Translations under genes and position numbers: made by a program
The notes under the pieces: generated by a model
What the model was told of the DNA's origin: nothing
Database searches by the model: none
What the model saw: the letters and a program-made list of their open reading frames with translations, nothing else
In this document: positions 7,932 through 32,496 of the stretch, piece by piece
Layout of the letters: each line of letters starts with the position of its first letter
Position numbering within the stretch: the first letter of the stretch is position 1
DNA from: Prochlorococcus sp. AG-347-I21
Lineage (GTDB): Bacteria > Cyanobacteriota > Cyanobacteriia > PCC-6307 > Cyanobiaceae
Length of the DNA: 32,496 nucleotides
Assembly (NCBI GenBank): GCA_003279055.1
Contig: QCBP01000013.1
Span: 1 to 32,496 of the forward strand
Reading direction: 5' to 3'

Positions 7932-8194
7932 TTAACAAATTCGTTATTGATTGAACACTTAGCACCTTATTTTTTTATTTCTATTTTTACTATTAAGCGA
8001 CAAAAAATTCCTGGCCTAGATTTATTTTCCTAAAAATTATACCCAATTTTAAGCTTTCATATTATCACAACTTTAGAGTTTCATTATGTTTATTTTATGG
8101 CTCACAGAGACCATATAGGATTGAAAAGATTATTGCAAAAGTTTTGCCTCTACTGAAACTTTTTTAAAATTATTAAGGTAAATAGAGAATCAAG

Positions 8195-8239
8195 TGGAGC
8201 CAAGCGGACTCGAACCGCTGACCCCCTGCATGCCATGCA
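8195..8239 (-). repeat. tRNA-Ala 3' fragment, distal attachment-site copy
   Basis: These 45 bases match 9654-9698 of the intact tRNA-Ala(GGC) exactly and in the same orientation; identity stops at once on both sides (8194/9653 and 8240/9699 differ). The copy covers part of the anticodon stem, the anticodon loop, the variable region, T arm, acceptor 3' strand and discriminator base. It lacks the D arm and 5' acceptor strand, so it cannot be a functional tRNA. Confidence 0.9.
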
Positions 8240-8288
8240 TATCATAAACTAAGTATAAATAAGTTTGGCAGGTATTTTTGGGCAATTT

Positions 8289-8310
8289 GCTCGCAGGGGT
8301 GCTCGTACAG
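8289..8310. repeat. GC-rich tandem motif near left attachment copy (candidate arm-type site)
   Basis: GCTCGCAGGGGT (8289-8300) is followed directly by GCTCGTACAG (8301-8310), two imperfect copies of a unit that also occurs at 9527-9560 as GGTCGCAGAGGT. It stands out by its GC content in an AT-rich spacer, 50 bp inside the left tRNA fragment. Position and repetition suit an integrase arm-binding site; this is inferred. Confidence 0.45.
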
Positions 8311-8418
8311 ATAATAATTTTAACAACACAAGATAAAATTACCCTTTTATCTTTAATTTTTGATTGAATATAAATTTATTTGAAGGACTCGATATGCCAG
8401 AGTTCATACATTGTTTTA

Positions 8419-9375
8419 TCAGGTAGTGAAGATCTTTTTAATTTTTCTTAAAATTAAATTAATACTTTTACTGATTCCTTTTAGATATAAATATCTCAAA
8501 AAATTTTTAAATCTCAAAAATAAAAATGATCCAGAGTAGTCACTAAAAAAATGTAAGAATTTTGGTAAAACTTGAAATCTTCTTGGTGATATTTTAATGT
8601 TAGGTTCCCAAGGACAAATAGGTCCAAAATTAGAACCATAACCAATTGAAAAAATTTCGGCATTATAACCAAAACCAATATAAGAGAAGAAATTAGATGT
8701 AATATTTTGGTAAGGAATCCTTTGAAGATTTAGTAATCCAATTAATTCATTTTTTACCAATAGAAGATCACTCTCAAAATAATGAACAATAGAATAACCT
8801 TTTTTAAGTGCTAACTTGGCTATTGCAGTTGATGAGCATCCAATATTAACTTTTGGATCTTCTGGTTGTATAAAACTTACATCTGGATGAAAAGTCGGGT
8901 TAAACTCAATTAGTATTACTTTCGGAGAAATATCAAGATCTCTAAAAATAAAATAATCCATACCATCTACATCAATAGAGAGAAAGTCAAGTTGATCGAA
9001 TCCTGCTTTTTTTAAAAAATAACTAACACTATTTTTTTTTGAATCCAAAATTGAATTAAATGGGAAAACTTTTTTCTGAGCGATTTTTAATTTATGATTC
9101 TCTAAAAGTTGATTGTATTTTTTTTTATTAGACTCTATAAAGATACAATTCGAATTGAATTTTCTAACTAAGTTACAAGTGTTAGATAGTAATACACCAT
9201 CCCATGCTCCTACCTCTAAACAATTAATATTTTCTAAAGGTCCAATTCGAGATAATATATTTTCCAAAACCCCATCTTGCCCAAATTGTGAGTAAATATT
9301 TTTTTCAAATTTTTTGAGGGCTAAATAAGTTTTACTTGCATTTTCTATTTGAATTTCGTATTTATTTTTAGACAT
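8419..9375 (-). CDS. FkbM family (Methyltransf_21) SAM-dependent methyltransferase
   Basis: Predicted O-methyltransferase acting on a sugar hydroxyl of a surface glycan. YSQFGQDGVLENIL (residues 28-41) is the typical lead-in. NCLEVGAWDG (51-60) is the glycine-rich SAM-binding strand and loop, FIESN (79-83) carries the acidic residue expected to hold the ribose, and LSIDVDGMDYFIF near 130-145 resembles motif IV. A stretch of about 130 residues follows the Rossmann core, ending in a strongly basic tail with many K and R. It is the only gene between the two copies of the tRNA-Ala 3' end and reads in the same direction as the tRNA, making it the apparent cargo of that element. Its acceptor is unknown; methylation of terminal sugars can block further glycosylation or phage binding. 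Confidence 0.82.
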   Translation of the reverse strand: MSKNKYEIQIENASKTYLALKKFEKNIYSQFGQDGVLENILSRIGPLENINCLEVGAWDGVLLSNTCNLVRKFNSNCIFIESNKKKYNQLLENHKLKIAQKKVFPFNSILDSKKNSVSYFLKKAGFDQLDFLSIDVDGMDYFIFRDLDISPKVILIEFNPTFHPDVSFIQPEDPKVNIGCSSTAIAKLALKKGYSIVHYFESDLLLVKNELIGLLNLQRIPYQNITSNFFSYIGFGYNAEIFSIGYGSNFGPICPWEPNIKISPRRFQVLPKFLHFFSDYSGSFLFLRFKNFLRYLYLKGISKSINLILRKIKKIFTT

Positions 9376-9526
9376 TTAATTATTGATATTTAAATGATAA
9401 AAATATAAATAACTATAGTCTAAAACTAGCAAAAAAGTTTTTTACTTTTTTTAAATTAGCCTCTTTATTATTTTAAAAGAATTAAAAATAACTATCAATA
9501 TCTTTCAACTATTTGCAAGACTTACT

Positions 9527-9560
9527 GGTCGCAGAGGTGGTCGCAGAGGTGGTCCAGAGG
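9527..9560. repeat. 12-bp direct repeats next to tRNA-Ala (candidate arm-type sites)
   Basis: GGTCGCAGAGGT occurs twice in tandem (9527-9538 and 9539-9550), followed by a degenerate third unit GGTCCAGAGG (9551-9560) that runs into GGTCATATTTT. The run lies about 95 bp from the tRNA 3' end, inside the element. Short GGGGTCATATTTT-like repeats in this position recall arm sites of P4-type tyrosine integrases; the comparison is from general knowledge and is not proof. Confidence 0.5.
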
Positions 9561-9588
9561 GGTCATATTTTGCCATATTTTACCTTAT

Positions 9589-9605
9589 CAAAACGTATCG
9601 TTTTG
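9589..9605. repeat. 7-bp inverted repeat beside the attachment site
   Basis: CAAAACG (9589-9595), a 3-nt spacer and CGTTTTG (9599-9605) form a perfect small dyad about 50 bp from the tRNA-Ala 3' end. It could bind a directionality factor or form a weak hairpin after the tRNA. A following A/T run without clear U-tract makes a terminator uncertain. Confidence 0.3.
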
Positions 9606-9653
9606 TTATGATAAATTGGTCAAACTAATTGGTATAACTAGCTAAAATCCTGA

Positions 9654-9726
9654 TGGAGCCAAGCGGACTCGAACCGCTGACCCCCTGCATGCCATGCAGG
9701 TGCTCTACCAGCTGAGCTATGGCCCC
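9654..9726 (-). tRNA. tRNA-Ala (anticodon GGC)
   Basis: Read on the - strand, the 73 bases fold as a full cloverleaf: acceptor GGGGCCA/TGGCTCC, D arm GCTC-AGCTGGTA-GAGC, anticodon stem CCTGC/GCAGG with loop ATGGCAT (anticodon GGC), T arm AGCGG-TTCGAGT-CCGCT and discriminator A. The G3-U70 pair that marks alanine tRNAs is present. The CCA end is not encoded; the gene is followed by TCA. Anticodon GGC reads GCC/GCU alanine codons. It forms the right border of the glycan island, and its 3' 45 bases are duplicated at 8195-8239, so it has served as an integration target. Confidence 0.97.
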
Positions 9727-10186
9727 AGACTTCAAAACATCCCCATATTAATCTATTTAAAGATTTCTTTTATGAAGTTCCTAATCATTATAGTACTTTA
9801 TAGAATTTGATAATTAAAATCTGAACCTTAAAATATCCCTTGAGATTTAAAAGTTGCAGCATGCTTTTTGAAGCTTCTCTAAGGCAATTATGTACCTACT
9901 TAAAAGTCATGTTAGTCATAGATAGAATGCGAATAGAAAGAGGATATTATTAAGAATGGACTCAAAAAATATTACCTTGAATAAAGCTCATCAAATAATA
10001 AATAAGTTATGCCTTTAAATAGATATTGAACAAATTAAATAATGAAAGATTTAATGGAAATTTTAATACTTTCCAAACATTCATAAACTTTGAGTGGTTG
10101 TAATGCAGAAAAATACAAATGAATGCTAAAAACTAAACAAGCATATAAGAATTAAACAAAAGGTGGGGCATCATTTATTTAAAAAT
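9727..10186. other. 460-bp intergenic stretch between tRNA-Ala and the LptD-like gene
   Basis: No convincing gene is visible. Short frames of about 20 codons with ATG starts occur, for example around 9956-10018, but have no recognisable product. The left end must hold the tRNA-Ala promoter; TTAATAT around 9745 on the - strand is a possible -10. The stretch may also contain the 3' end of the transcript from the LptD-like gene. Confidence 0.4.
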
Positions 10187-12325
10187 TTAGAATTTTGAGT
10201 TAGTTCCAGAAAAATCAAAATTAAATATATTGAATTTCAATCCAATACTTTCATTATCAGTGTTATAAAAAGCTCCCAAAGAATAAGCTCTTCTCTTAAT
10301 ATTGATTGCATAAGTCGGAAGTGTGTATTGTCCATCATCCAAATTTAAGGAAGTTTCATAGCTAAATAATAAAGGTCCAATAATTTGTTGATCTAAATTA
10401 ATTTTTACTCTTGTAGATTCAATAACATCGTCAAAAGCAAAAGGACTTTGCCCATTTTTAAGAACGTAACTTAGACTTGTATTTAATTTTGTAAAGTCAA
10501 AGAAATTCCTAGTAAGACCTCCTAAAATAATCTCTGGTCCAGTATCAAAACTTATAGAAGATTGATAATCATTATTACTGTAAATCAAATAACTTGCCTT
10601 AATCTCAGAAATTAAATTTATTCCCTGATCAATAATTTTTGGCGAATATTTGTAATTCTCATCAATATTAGACTTAAGAATTTCTTTTTCCCATAATGGG
10701 AATTTATAGTTGTATTTTATTAAAAATCCATGTCTTGAAAGTTTTGCTAATTGATTAATATTTTTCTTTTTTGCATTAAATTCGCCAAAATCATATACAA
10801 AAGCTAGATTTGAATTGACATTATTTTTATTCCAAATACTTCTATTAGCAATATTGAAACCATTACCGAAATAAATTTCCTGATCGCCAGCATACGTCCT
10901 TGATACCTTTTCTCTATAAGAACTATATATTTCAAAATCAAAAAAGTTTCTAAAAAAAATATTTTTGTCATTATCAGGATTTTGAGTTAAGAATTTTTGA
11001 GTGTTATTCGAATTATATTCAATAGTTTTCCTCAGAGATAATCTAGATCTAGCTGCTTGATCAAATCTATCAAGATTTAAAGAATTTAAACTAGTTTCCA
11101 GTACAACATCCCAATCATTTGATTTGCCTTTAAGTTTCATATCTAAAGCAAAATAATCCGGAAATTCTGCATCAGTTTTCTTCTTATCACTAAAAATTGA
11201 TGTCCCAGAATCTCGAAAAGAATTTGTATTACCTTTTATTGCTCTTTGAATTAAAAAATATGGTTGCAGTTTTAAAGAAAAATTTTTAAATAAGCTAATT
11301 TCGTCAGAACCTCTAAAAATATAAATACCATCTTTTTCACTACTATCGGAACCTAAACCCCATCTAGTTAATGGATCTTTATCAAGTATGTTTCTTCTTC
11401 CAATTGGAAATCTAAATTTATTATCTAAATTAATCCAAGTATTTTTACTAGTAAGTTTTGTTTTATCATTTAAAATTTCTGCTTTAAAATTTCTGCTTTC
11501 AAGAATTAGTTGTGGCTTGTTAATAGGATCATTGGTGAAATATACAATATCGGATTTTATTGAGTCAGAATCAAATATTAATTTTGACGATTTAAATCTC
11601 CATTTTGAAATTGCGGGAACCTTAAGTTCTAATTCAGATATATTAAATCTTGAATCTTTTTCAAAATCATTTACAAAACCAAAAGTAGCACTATCTTTGT
11701 AAGTTAGATTTTCTAAATTATCTTGTTGATATTCAAAGTTCGATTTTTCATCAAAATCTAAATTACTAAGTTCAAAATCTTTATTTATTGTTTTAATATT
11801 TAATACGCCATATATATTTTCTATGTAACCTTCTTTTGTGATTAAAGAATACTGAAGATTAGATGCTTCAAAATACTGATCTCCTTTATAAAACTTTAAA
11901 TTACCTTTAGCAATAAGTTTTTTATTTTCTCTATTAAAAGTCACCTTATCTGCTTTTAACTTGGCATTCCCTATATAAAGGATGACATTTCCTTCTGCTA
12001 TAAGAATATTATCAATTTGATATTGAACATCAGATTCAATATCCAACAAAAAATCTTCATTTTTTTCTCTTCTATTAGAAATAAGGGTGCCAATAAAAGT
12101 ATTTTCAATTTTTCTTATATCATTATTAAATGTATCTATAAATTCTTTTCGATGAAATAAAAATGATTTCTTTTGAAAATCTGCTAAAGAGTTAATTTTT
12201 TCATCTAATGAAAGAAACTCATCATTAAAAGATTTTGATTCTATTGGCAATAAAAAAATAGAAAAAAATTCTAAAAATATAAACAATGGAAAATATTTTG
12301 AATTTTTAAAATAAGTTTTATCCAA
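10187..12325 (-). CDS. DUF3769 protein, cyanobacterial LptD/OstA-like outer-membrane protein
   Basis: Large 712-aa exported protein. A hydrophobic signal-like segment (about residues 12-28) is followed by a region (about 105-170) with repeated OstA/LptA-like strands, for example ILIAEGNVILYIGNAKLKAD and KGNLKFYKGDQYFEA, and then a long C-terminal half rich in alternating polar/hydrophobic strands ending in phenylalanine, as in outer-membrane beta-barrels. This is the plan of LptD, which inserts lipopolysaccharide into the outer leaflet; cyanobacterial members carry DUF3769. It is leftward, 67 bp after lexA, and is the first core gene beyond the tRNA-Ala border of the glycan island. The family call rests on my reading of the OstA-like part; the exact cyanobacterial substrate is not established. 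Confidence 0.75.
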   Translation of the reverse strand: MDKTYFKNSKYFPLFIFLEFFSIFLLPIESKSFNDEFLSLDEKINSLADFQKKSFLFHRKEFIDTFNNDIRKIENTFIGTLISNRREKNEDFLLDIESDVQYQIDNILIAEGNVILYIGNAKLKADKVTFNRENKKLIAKGNLKFYKGDQYFEASNLQYSLITKEGYIENIYGVLNIKTINKDFELSNLDFDEKSNFEYQQDNLENLTYKDSATFGFVNDFEKDSRFNISELELKVPAISKWRFKSSKLIFDSDSIKSDIVYFTNDPINKPQLILESRNFKAEILNDKTKLTSKNTWINLDNKFRFPIGRRNILDKDPLTRWGLGSDSSEKDGIYIFRGSDEISLFKNFSLKLQPYFLIQRAIKGNTNSFRDSGTSIFSDKKKTDAEFPDYFALDMKLKGKSNDWDVVLETSLNSLNLDRFDQAARSRLSLRKTIEYNSNNTQKFLTQNPDNDKNIFFRNFFDFEIYSSYREKVSRTYAGDQEIYFGNGFNIANRSIWNKNNVNSNLAFVYDFGEFNAKKKNINQLAKLSRHGFLIKYNYKFPLWEKEILKSNIDENYKYSPKIIDQGINLISEIKASYLIYSNNDYQSSISFDTGPEIILGGLTRNFFDFTKLNTSLSYVLKNGQSPFAFDDVIESTRVKINLDQQIIGPLLFSYETSLNLDDGQYTLPTYAINIKRRAYSLGAFYNTDNESIGLKFNIFNFDFSGTNSKF

Positions 12326-26418: not shown

Positions 26419-27635
26419 TTTTTCTCAAGTAGAACTACTGAATGGCAACTTATACCCTCTTCCCTCCCTTCTGGACCCAATTTTTCATTCGTGGTTGCTT
26501 TAATCCCAATTAAATTTTGATCAATATTTAAAATTTCAGAAATGTTTTCTTTCATTAGTTTTATATGTGGCATGATTTTTGGCCTTTCAGCAACAATAAC
26601 ACTATCAATATTATTTATTTCCCAACCATCTTGTCTTATCAAGTCAATTACTTTTGATAACAAAAACAAGCTATCAGCATTTTTCCATTTTTCATCAGAT
26701 GGAGGGAAATACTTTCCTATGTCGCCCAATGAAAGAGCGCCCAATAATGCATCCATTATTGAGTGACTTAACACATCAGCATCACTATGCCCATCTAATC
26801 CTAAACTTTCAGGGTGATGCAACTTTACACCTCCAATTATTAGATCTCTATCCTCTACTAGTCTGTGAATATCGTATCCATTACCTATTCTAAATTTCAT
26901 GAATTGATTATTTTCTTTTATTATTCTCTTACTTTGTGGGGATTTTTTGTAGTTTTCATTTGAAATCAAGTCACTTCTTCTCTCCAATGTTCTTTCTAAA
27001 CTTTTTTTTCTTCTCCACGATTTAATCTCTTCATGATTACCGCTCACTAAAATATCTGGCACTTTCATATCTTTAAAAGTTAAAGGCCTTGTGTATTGAG
27101 GATATTCTAATAAAGAGAAATTATGACTCTCATCGACTAAGGAGTCTGGATCACCAAGAGTCCCTGGTAATAACCTAGTCAAACCATTAATTATTGATAT
27201 AGCAGGTATTTCACCTCCAGAAAGGACATAATCGCCTATCGATATCTCTTCATCAGCTAAGCATCTAATCCTTTCATCAAAACCTTCATATTGACCACAA
27301 ATAATTATTATTTGATCCAAAGTGGACCATCTCGCAAGATCCTTTTGCTTTAAAACTTTACCCTGAGGGGTCATCAGCAAAGTTTTACTTTTAGGTGATT
27401 TTCTAATTGATTCATATGCCTTATAAATAGGTTCAGGCTTTAATACCATACCTGCTCCTCCTCCATAAGGCTTATCGTCTACTTGTCTGTACGAACCTTC
27501 TCCATATTCTCTTAAATCATATAAATTTACATCGATCAAATTCTTATCTCGAGCTCTTGTTATGACCCCTAAATTATTTAATAAATCAAAAGCTTTAGGG
27601 AACAATGTAATTACATCAAAATTAAAACCACTCAT
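26415..27635 (-). CDS. trmD-ispF: TrmD-IspF fusion: tRNA m1G37 methyltransferase / MECDP synthase
   Basis: One continuous 406-codon frame holding two complete enzymes. Residues 1-245 are TrmD, which methylates G37 of tRNAs: [23 protein letters not shown], the SAM-binding knot [10 protein letters not shown] and LSGGEIPA. Residues 246-406 are IspF, which cyclises the methylerythritol intermediate for isoprenoids: GNGYDIHRL with zinc ligands D255 and H257, [19 protein letters not shown], and the C-terminal [14 protein letters not shown]. An internal ATG at 26900 begins the IspF part (161 aa, normal length), so IspF could also be made separately. The link is a basic stretch rich in K, R, N and S with no stop codon. 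The TrmD start abuts the era stop. Domains are certain; the physical fusion needs checking. Confidence 0.9.
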
Positions 27636-31390: not shown

Positions 31391-32496
31391 CTATAAATCA
31401 GCAAAACCTTTTTTCTTTTTATTATTTTTTTGTTTTTTTATTGGTTTATTAGCACTCATTCCTGGCATTCCTCCCATTCCTGGCATTCCTCCCATTCCTG
31501 GCATTCCTCCCATTCCTGGCATTCCTCCGTTAGACATTTGTTTCATAAAACCCCTCATTCTTTGAAAATCAGCTAAAACTTTATCTACATCTTTTGCTTC
31601 ATAACCACTGCCCTTAGCAATTCTTTGTCTTCTTGAAGGCTGAGCAGCGAGAACTTCAGGTTTTTGCTTCTCCTCAAGAGTCATCGAAGAGATCATAGAT
31701 TCTATTTTCTTAAGTTGATCTTCACCATCTTTGATCATCCCATCATCGATCTTATTCATTCCAGGAATCAGCTTAATCAATCCACCAAGTGATCCCATTC
31801 TTTTAATTAATCTCATTTGCTTAACAAAATCATTAAAATCGAAAGTCGCTTCTTGAAGTTTCTTTTGCATAGCTTCTGCATCAGCAAGTTCAACTTCTTT
31901 TTGGGCTTTTTCAACAAGTGTCAATACATCACCCATACCTAAAATTCTGCTAGCCATTCTCTCTGGATGAAATGGTTGCAATGCCTCTATTTTTTCACCT
32001 ACACCTATAAATTTGATTGGCTTACCACTTATTTTTCTTATTGATAACGCAGCCCCTCCTCTAGAATCTCCATCCAACTTAGTTAATATCGCACCTGAAA
32101 TTCCTACTTTTTCATGAAATGATTTTGTTAAATCAGCAGCTTCTTGACCAATCATAGAATCAACAACAAGCAAAACTTCATCAGGATTAGAAACTTCTTT
32201 TATTCGAACCATTTCACTCATCATGGAATCATCAATTTGCAATCTTCCAGCGGTATCAATAATTATCGAATTAAAATCATTTTTAACAGCAAAATTCAAT
32301 GCTTCTTTTGCTATCTCTTCTGGTTTGCTATTTTTTTCTTTAGCTGAAAAAACTTCCAAGTCATATTGACTTCCCAATGTTTTAAGCTGCTCTACAGCTG
32401 CTGGTCGATAAATATCTGCAGCAACCAAAAGAACTTTTTTATCTTTTTCCTTCAAGTAAAGTCCTAATTTTCCTGTTGCAGTTGTTTTACCGGCTC
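31391..32496 (-). CDS. ffh: Signal recognition particle protein Ffh (5' part missing)
   Basis: GTPase that binds signal sequences and SRP RNA to target membrane proteins to the translocon. The window end cuts the gene in the P-loop: the last visible codons read AGKTTATGKLGLYLKEKDKK. G-domain motifs seen are DTAGR, LTKLDGDSRGG and GVGEK; the M domain follows with GSLGGLIKLIPGM, SMTLEEKQKPE and RRQRIAKGSG. The C-terminal tail has methionine-glycine repeats and a lysine-rich end. There is no internal start; the TTG-initiated frame at 32455 is only a fragment. Missing: N domain and the start of the G domain. Confidence 0.96.
   Translation of the reverse strand, partial: AGKTTATGKLGLYLKEKDKKVLLVAADIYRPAAVEQLKTLGSQYDLEVFSAKEKNSKPEEIAKEALNFAVKNDFNSIIIDTAGRLQIDDSMMSEMVRIKEVSNPDEVLLVVDSMIGQEAADLTKSFHEKVGISGAILTKLDGDSRGGAALSIRKISGKPIKFIGVGEKIEALQPFHPERMASRILGMGDVLTLVEKAQKEVELADAEAMQKKLQEATFDFNDFVKQMRLIKRMGSLGGLIKLIPGMNKIDDGMIKDGEDQLKKIESMISSMTLEEKQKPEVLAAQPSRRQRIAKGSGYEAKDVDKVLADFQRMRGFMKQMSNGGMPGMGGMPGMGGMPGMGGMPGMSANKPIKKQKNNKKKKGFADL
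31457..31528. repeat. 18-bp tandem repeat (4 units) in the ffh M-domain tail
   Basis: CATTCCTGGCATTCCTCC and its neighbours repeat with an 18-bp period, giving four units over 72 bp that encode GMGGMP-type hexapeptides. Such glycine-methionine tails are common in bacterial Ffh, where methionines help line the signal-sequence groove. Perfect DNA repeats mean unit number may vary between strains. Confidence 0.85.

Follow-up and report, generated by a model that had tools for sequence, protein, structure and literature searches.

The stretch of DNA considered here, called the window in the following, comprises 32,496 nucleotides (32.5 kb) of Prochlorococcus sp. AG-347-I21 and is contig 13 of a 1.56-Mb genome that is 96.8% complete. 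ARAGORN finds one tRNA in it, a tRNA-Ala(GGC) at 9652–9727 on the minus strand, and a repeat search of the window shows that 8195–8239 and 9654–9698 are identical 45-mers in direct orientation. Counted on the sequence, the 45-bp copy corresponds to tRNA-Ala(GGC) from nucleotide 29 to the discriminator A73: it starts in the anticodon stem, covers the anticodon loop and stops precisely at the 3' end of the tRNA, and the identity of the two copies breaks off on both flanks. The chance expectation of an exact 45-nt match in 32.5 kb is essentially zero, and of repeats of at least 25 nt the window has just one other family, the 9-nt tandem array of 31439–31537. Between the two copies lies one open reading frame (ORF) of at least 80 amino acids (8419–9375, minus strand, 318 amino acids), which encodes a protein of the FkbM methyltransferase type. 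The whole unit is 1.46 kb long. No integrase was found in 8195–9653, neither among the ORFs of at least 80 amino acids nor with the integrase of genome G017 and the integrase relic of genome G124, both described below, as queries. A sequence-only reading of the same DNA had claimed a sharply ending direct copy of the tRNA-Ala and, between the copies, one complete gene and no integrase; both claims hold. That account has to be corrected in two respects: the outer border of the unit is adjoined by the relic of another element (7932–8194), and its size is not the smallest (see below).

The locus was compared across the genus. A query of 241 bp around the tRNA has a match in 250 of 266 genomes, and from the listed matches 80 tRNA-Ala loci (up to 20 kb) were picked, which is a non-random sample, and oriented like the window. 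With the window these are 81 loci; 13 further ones were added later, giving 94 in total. Same-direction 3' fragments of tRNA-Ala are present on the 3' side of the tRNA in 24 of the 81 loci (32 fragments in all) and in 28 of the 94 loci of the extended set. All but four of the 32 start at query position 1–3, which is the tRNA 3' end, and their far ends lie at query 45–50 in 19 cases (at 47–48 in 16), at 54 in five and at 65–69 in eight. The fragments of locus L040 are weak (74%); three shorter matches (L106, L133, L158) and an inverted 5' fragment in L121 were left out of the count. The latter (G104:C6, query 35–76), an exception to the rule, is on the 3' side of the tRNA at a distance of about 0.9 kb, near a broken integrase. 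Judged by the loci compared, tRNA-Ala(GGC) is an accretion hotspot in Prochlorococcus.

The 32 units between fragments and tRNA contain exactly one ORF of at least 80 amino acids in 19 cases, several in nine and none in four (126, 145, 178, and 206 bp). Two additional one-ORF units were seen, one without a detected fragment (L032) and one with merely weak fragment similarity (L148). The one-ORF units in which both arm types described below are found by profile span from 659 bp (L050), 778 bp (L037), and 880 bp (L041) up to 2.6 kb (L031). It had been thought from the window that a 1.4-kb unit would be at the lower size limit, which is not the case, considering the one-ORF units of 880 and 659 bp and the ORF-less ones of 206 and 178 bp. 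The last two (L047 and L147, respectively) consist of two arms only and are apparent solo attachment sites.

What is carried differs from locus to locus. In a Pfam scan of 20 cargo ORFs, three of them from units that lack the conserved arm described below at one or both ends and one from a two-ORF unit, FkbM was passed by four (L034, L047, L107, L099). With the window this makes 5 of 21 scanned ORFs, which is a raw count without background control and from which no enrichment is claimed. The cargo of L150 and L040 passes other methyltransferase models, and that of L145 is a methyltransferase below the cut-off; the remaining matches are to acyltransferase-SGNH, GDSL lipase, trypsin-like, and metallo-lactamase-like proteins. 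For 9 of the 20 there was no Pfam match. The L034 gene has a 91% homolog in L037. Thus the other cargo between the same repeats that the sequence-only reading proposed to look for exists: at the same tRNA elsewhere there is different cargo, or none detected. A true empty site, having the left flank of the window itself, was not found among these loci, where the flanking sulfotransferase-type gene of the window has just one partial relative near the tRNA (L104).

The units have conserved ends that are not derived from the tRNA. The left arm, about 95 bp following the fragment, contains a AAGCTATAACTAG block and the direct pair GSTCGCAG-N4-GSTCGCAG, and the right arm, about 120 bp preceding the tRNA, contains the same GSTCGCAG pair and a TAATTGGTATAACTAG block. 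The sites are direct pairs with a period of 12 bp at both ends of the window unit and of its counterparts, and in the right arm of the window the strict pair is exact (9527–9546). Profiles were trained on arms of these loci, 20 left and 18 right ones, and yielded, at E ≤ 1e-3, 36 left and 43 right matches in the 94 loci. All of these are on the expected strand, and the reversed sequences gave none; some matches are one profile catching the site pair of the other arm, so that not all of them are separate arms. The arms of the window, which is in the training set, match with E values of 3e-14 (left) and 5e-33 (right). The left one is 85% identical over 128 bp to that of L033 in BLAST. Homology between the right one and the ends of other elements may extend approximately to the start codon of an integrase, the outer part being judged by eye from the alignment. 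Both arm types are found by profile in 18 one-ORF units.

The association of the sites with this tRNA was also tested independently of the choice of loci. An unselected scan of 264 genomes of the genus for the strict pair gave 24 matches in 16 genomes, the reversed pattern none. Of these, 23 are at most about 110 bp away from a tRNA-Ala or a fragment (one fragment being decayed), and the 24th, in G193, belongs to a left arm with no fragment detected. In a wider set with one genome per species (84,980 species), fragment plus site occurred in 58 stretches. Eleven are Prochlorococcus records, including those of MIT 9302 and MIT 9201, with 13 matches that all have a tRNA-Ala fragment, seen in 12 by a text test and in L403 by eye. 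The 47 stretches from other organisms had no tRNA-Ala context in a crude text test and are treated as chance. Of these two strains, MIT 9201 carries sites at either end of its unit, and the unit of MIT 9302 has a left arm. In a viral collection the strict pair is unspecific (at least 120 stretches), and fragment plus site was found there in one stretch, without tRNA-Ala context. Among phage records 247 match; in the 20 listed, query coverage is at most 8%, and 14 of the 20 are at an annotated tRNA-Ala.

We therefore consider it probable that the interval is an integrase-less cargo unit bounded by attachment sites, that it resembles a cis-mobilizable element (CIME), and that it belongs to an array built up by tandem accretion at tRNA-Ala(GGC). 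A direct repeat would also be the outcome if the tRNA 3' end had been duplicated in tandem without a recombinase and the gene inserted later, but the fragments recur in many genomes in one orientation with conserved non-tRNA arms on both sides, and they are also found in integrase-bearing elements, which makes such an origin extremely improbable. Chance or a simple tRNA duplication is likewise rejected in view of the arms, the orientation and the full elements.

These full elements, 6.4–13 kb in size, are located on both sides of the tRNA. For example, G017 has 6.8 kb between a 100% identical 47-bp fragment and the tRNA. Its integrase (429 amino acids) starts about 135 bp from the tRNA and matches phrog_1 with E 1e-16, and PF00589 with 25.4 bits, which is below the cut-off; a weakly Xis-like helix-turn-helix protein and an AAA protein are also encoded. 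In G106 (7.9 kb) and G067 (13.0 kb) the integrase adjoins the tRNA and the fragment is at the far end. The G067 element (L190, G067:C2; about 13 kb, 3' side) carries ExbB, ExbD, a TonB-dependent receptor and a FecCD ABC system. The integration by tyrosine recombinases at this tRNA that had been supposed from the window is thus supported by the elements of G017, G106, and G067 between the same tRNA and fragment, which are also the larger, integrase-carrying versions that had been suggested as a check. In L189 (G106:C25) there are two related integrases, one on each flank of the same tRNA-Ala.

Among the best 14 matches to the G017 integrase in the 264 genomes, 13 have tRNA-Ala beside them: nine contigs carry ten open copies, and those in G104, G152, and G255 are broken. 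The remaining match, in G202, covers a C-terminal part and is about 7 kb away from the tRNA-Ala of its contig. Further down the list there are remnants or other families; G176 has a 70% match of 83 amino acids in a 3.2-kb locus that contains no tRNA-Ala. Six of the ten open copies (52–59% identity) are on the 5' side of the tRNA. There, the elements of G142 (12.95 kb) and G129 (6.4 kb) leave a 5' fragment (query 34/35–76), and the former (L193, G142:C8) carries a phosphonate-binding protein, an ABC permease, a PhyH-type oxygenase and a 2-hydroxyacid dehydrogenase. The integrase-bearing classes have their own repeated arm motifs (GAGCAG/GTGCAG; CTGCACC/GCGCCA). The crossover most likely occurs in the anticodon stem-loop, because the common 3' fragments (query 1–48) and the 5' fragments (query 34–76) overlap solely in query 34–48, which is 9685–9699 of the window. 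Longer 3' fragments (to 54 or 65–69) blur this position but do not contradict it.

The following sequence of events would account for the window unit. The crossover in the anticodon stem-loop would have been made by a tyrosine recombinase that belongs, broadly, to the family of the integrases at this tRNA, and with each new insertion the tRNA would have been restored from the element's own copy, the old 3' end being displaced as a fragment. The ancestor would have been a full element with its integrase directly behind the GSTCGCAG right arm; the integrase and the rest would later have been lost or replaced by a single gene. The unit would persist because the gene is useful, and it would move only if a matching integrase, or a newly accreted neighbour element, supplied the enzyme.

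For an integrase behind the GSTCGCAG arm there are traces in several genomes. In G124 an N-terminus of 82 amino acids directly follows the right arm, decayed N-termini are at the same place in G246 and G256, a 20-amino-acid piece is left in G069, and a possible trace of the start codon is seen behind the right arm in G134, G121, and G076. The N-terminus from G124 has no close relative in a 300-genome sample of the family, where no identity exceeds 43% (over 48 amino acids), and no match at E ≤ 0.01 in the window's own genome (G000). With the G017 integrase as query, the sole match in that genome is on contig 19, a protein of 468 amino acids with 29% identity over 251 amino acids to the query and 38% over 71 to a frame in G094; it is provisionally not taken for the cognate integrase. 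PF00589 has three matches in the own genome, and among those listed is a 389-amino-acid protein with like-sized counterparts in many genomes. The G094 frame is a truncated integrase of about 263 amino acids, 1.6 kb from its own tRNA-Ala, with no strict site pair on the stretch examined. Full-length relatives exist in G059 and G113 (51–53% over the N-terminus; L399, G059:C4; L400, G113:C7), yet they adjoin a tRNA-Arg(TCT)-like 5' half, and the motif repeated in their arms is a different one, CTGAGTGACCA.

The small cassettes have the appearance of cargo for which a recombinase from another source is, or used to be, necessary. Two rivals within the cargo-unit reading differ solely in whether units still move. 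In the one, single genes circulate as small circles of two arms and the tRNA core, with the integrase coming from a satellite, a phage or another element. For this speak the conserved double arms around many unrelated single genes, and the left-arm sites, which are conserved above the rest of the arm (mean pairwise identity 0.874 versus 0.692, p = 0.0015; right arm 0.759 versus 0.668, p = 0.07) and thereby indicate use over evolutionary time. Movement by an integrase encoded elsewhere was also the suggestion of the sequence-only reading, of which the part on structure stands, there being two arms and no integrase, and the part on such an integrase stays conjectural: no helper of the relic type was seen in the own genome, no close relative of it in the family sample, and no intact one at tRNA-Ala in the 264 congeners. 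A search of viral contigs with the G017 integrase found no relative either, and the integrase relics in some sibling units point to decay in place. Live circulation is therefore no more than a tentative possibility for us.

In the other rival, to which we give about an even chance, the unit is a pure fossil: a full element lost its inner part by deletion, one useful gene was left between dead sites, and the likeness of the arms is due to homologous recombination around the tRNA. The integrase N-termini behind the right arm in G124, G246, G069, and G256 are as expected from such a descent. Dead sites should not be conserved above the rest of the left arm, however, nor should 18 one-ORF units have kept both arm types. 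The right arm of the window is 98.2% identical over 113 bp to that of G191, 97% over 103 bp to that of G090, and 96% over 100 bp to that of G145, whereas a 3.6-kb core stretch is only 85–87% identical to these genomes (G191 87%); across species, this is too high for dead noncoding DNA unless it was recently exchanged. In 15 genomes the arm identity (68–114 bp) is unrelated to the core identity (rho 0.03, p = 0.93), so that the history of the arms appears to be distinct from that of their host, which favours circulation.

The gene itself passes PF05050 (Methyltransf_21) narrowly, with 23.5 bits at a Pfam gathering cut-off of 22.7. Its dN/dS is 0.24 (NG86) or 0.12 (YN00) against the homolog in G076 and 0.10 (NG86, dS saturated) against that in G121; by these ratios the gene, whose frame is intact, is under purifying selection. 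Homologs of at least 51% identity are present in 4 of the 264 genomes, the own genome counted, the copy in G094 having an in-frame stop, and any match at E ≤ 0.001 in 16 of the 264. Gene and fragment are thus not fixed in the relatives, as they should have been if the sequence-only reading were wrong, and elsewhere there is other cargo or none. Glycosyltransferase-type and sulfotransferase-type genes are to the left of the unit. Because of its family and of these adjacent glycan genes, the cargo most likely modifies a surface glycan.

It should be noted that several observations weigh against the unit as we read it. In G076 the same gene (72% amino acid identity) is contiguous with its own right arm at the same tRNA, with no outer fragment detected, so that the gene may have arrived or persisted by other routes; a fossil could well look like this. 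The left sites of the window are of the C subtype and the right ones of the G subtype. Among 22 units scored, 12 are legible and the subtypes of both ends agree in 10 of them, which fits live circulation, and the window is one of the two mismatches, which does not. The agreement has a Fisher p of 0.028 including the 206-bp unit with its one shared site pair and of about 0.06 without it (hand calculation), and is given little weight. It is possible that the window unit is a recombinant which no integrase can process efficiently, and its mosaic arms are what a fossil would have. Furthermore, no intact integrase of the relic type was found at tRNA-Ala among the 264 congeners, and the assignment of a recombinase to the GSTCGCAG class therefore rests on relics. 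Finally, G124 (L195, G124:C24) has an intact, different integrase of 429 amino acids, at −2646 to −1357 relative to the tRNA and with about 30% identity to the G017 enzyme. Between its start and the outer fragment there are about 140 bp with other repeats, and it is in the interval that also contains the GSTCGCAG arm and the relic; we take it to belong to another element, and a link to the GSTCGCAG arm is possible. Because of the G076 arrangement and the mismatched subtypes, the window unit is probably old and mosaic rather than a recent single delivery.

The surroundings of the unit (Table 1) indicate further arrivals. The relic at 7932–8194 matches L199 with 69.8 bits (71.5% over 144 bp; best of 200 dinucleotide shuffles 49.1), is found at a similar offset from the tRNA (about −235 to −95) in L191, L199 and, weaker, L156, and was aligned over its own length with six such element ends. 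The sequence homologous to 9744–9930 is next to the tRNA in 51 of the 94 loci, and the upstream region of tRNA-Ala itself seems to derive from an element in many genomes. Going by the unit and the two relics, at least three element classes have landed at this tRNA.

Table 1. Features in and around the probable cargo unit at tRNA-Ala(GGC) of the window (a point stands for a strand that was not assigned).
Feature	Position	Strand	Remarks
Relic, tRNA-proximal end (right arm and first integrase codons) of an older element of the G017/G066-integrase type	7932–8194	.	Adjoins the fragment on the outside
45-bp copy of tRNA-Ala(GGC) nt 29–73, outer attachment half-site	8195–8239	−	100% identical to 9654–9698
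Left attachment arm	8240–8383	.	Paired sites GCTCGCAG-N4-GCTCGTAC at 8289–8308
FkbM-type methyltransferase, 318 amino acids, intact, purifying selection	8419–9375	−	PF05050 23.5 bits; dN/dS
Right attachment arm	9486–9653	.	GGTCGCAG at 9527 and 9539, with GGTCCAGA at 9551 as a third half-site
Intact tRNA-Ala(GGC), inner attachment site	9652–9727	−	ARAGORN; crossover probably within 9685–9699, anticodon stem-loop
Relic of a 5'-side-class element, tRNA-proximal arm and integrase start	9744–9930	.	Homologous to arm and integrase start of L192/L193

To the right of the unit there are a DUF3769/LptD-like gene, lexA and a gene for an aspartate/ornithine carbamoyltransferase. The DUF3769/LptD-like gene (10187–12325) is placed between tRNA-Ala and lexA; in L036 and L038 lexA is at most about 70 bp away from the tRNA, so that the 5' side of the tRNA is also variable. 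The tandem array at 31439–31537 is a 9-bp repeat (CATTCCTGG/CATTCCTCC) inside an ORF (31391–32455), with one distant 61% copy at 27429.

Integrase-less accretion units bounded by attachment sites are already known, and the case of tRNA-Ala in Prochlorococcus is a variant with paired-site arms and often one gene. CIMEs are described as lacking integration genes, retaining attachment sites and accreting in tandem, and as decay products of integrative and conjugative or integrative and mobilizable elements (PMC5704250). Like these, the window unit has no integration or transfer genes (its one ORF of at least 80 amino acids being the FkbM-type one), keeps the 45-bp core and a paired-site arm at both ends (putative attL and attR), and is stacked at a tRNA 3' end beside decayed or intact elements using the same site. 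Descent from an integrase-bearing element, as in CIMEs, may apply: in siblings integrase relics are behind the same kind of arm, and in the window there is only the arm, perhaps reaching to the start codon. Unlike CIMEs, the units here are mostly of about 1 kb with a single gene and have small satellite-like or cargo elements as their relatives; of the integrase of the class only relics were seen. In Dehalococcoides, arrays at ssrA with 15 units without integration module have been suggested to be CIMEs, and tRNA-Ala 3' fragments are present in plastic regions (PMC3146451, PMC2764846). The arrays of attachment-site-bounded units at an RNA gene are alike; the Dehalococcoides units have a serine-recombinase module and rdhA, however, whereas those of Prochlorococcus are of the tyrosine-recombinase type with paired 12-bp arm sites and often one gene.

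Hackl et al. are said to have described, in 2023, the tycheposons of Prochlorococcus, which reportedly integrate at tRNA genes by a tyrosine recombinase. Tycheposons are given as 4–200 kb in size, with a tyrosine recombinase and one of seven tRNA genes in Prochlorococcus as target (PMC10872708). The window unit shares the host genus and the integration at a tRNA gene, and the large tRNA-Ala elements resemble tycheposons in carrying an integrase and in part Xis-like proteins, AAA proteins or nutrient cargo; the window unit itself, with 1.46 kb and no recombinase, is below that range. Additive flexible genomic islands of Methylophilaceae have tRNA-Lys end repeats before variable islands down to 330 bp with one coding sequence (PMC10872708). 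Variable cassettes, or none detected, at one tRNA are common to both, the recombination being deduced in our case, and unlike for the Prochlorococcus units, conserved arms or paired sites are not mentioned in the passages on these islands (PMC10872708). In Prochlorococcus MIT9313 five pseudo-tRNA-Met copies are found in an island (PMC2784084); these are from the same genus but from another tRNA, and are linked to a phage attP and transposases rather than to one-gene units.

Single genes between recombination sites, in arrays without an integrase, recall integron gene cassettes and clusters of attC sites lacking integron integrases (CALINs). An integron gene cassette has a single palindromic attC site, and the cassettes are in one orientation, whereas here a tRNA core is combined with direct-repeat arms and the cargo is on either strand. 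Both integron cassettes and CALINs are mentioned in PMC11389934. One-gene units at the tRNA-Ala of Prochlorococcus are not described in the titles and abstract openings listed from the literature; the primary tycheposon paper may mention them. That an integron-like cassette economy operates at this one tRNA, with circles of about 1 kb, many of them with methyltransferases, a tRNA-Ala core and paired GSTCGCAG arms, and a recombinase acting in trans that is almost never integrated itself, we consider rather unlikely.

The islands of Prochlorococcus hold many of its flexible genes, and the route by which single genes enter them has mostly gone unseen. At tRNA-Ala the ends of the units are defined by their sequence, so that gain, loss and excision are directly testable in cultured strains (MIT 9201, MIT 9302), and the missing integrase can be searched for via its expected binding sites. 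The locus is a readable stratigraphy, in which element classes with different arm motifs are stacked on both sides of one anticodon loop. And if the cassette economy were true, surface-modifying genes could be swapped singly in the most abundant phototroph.

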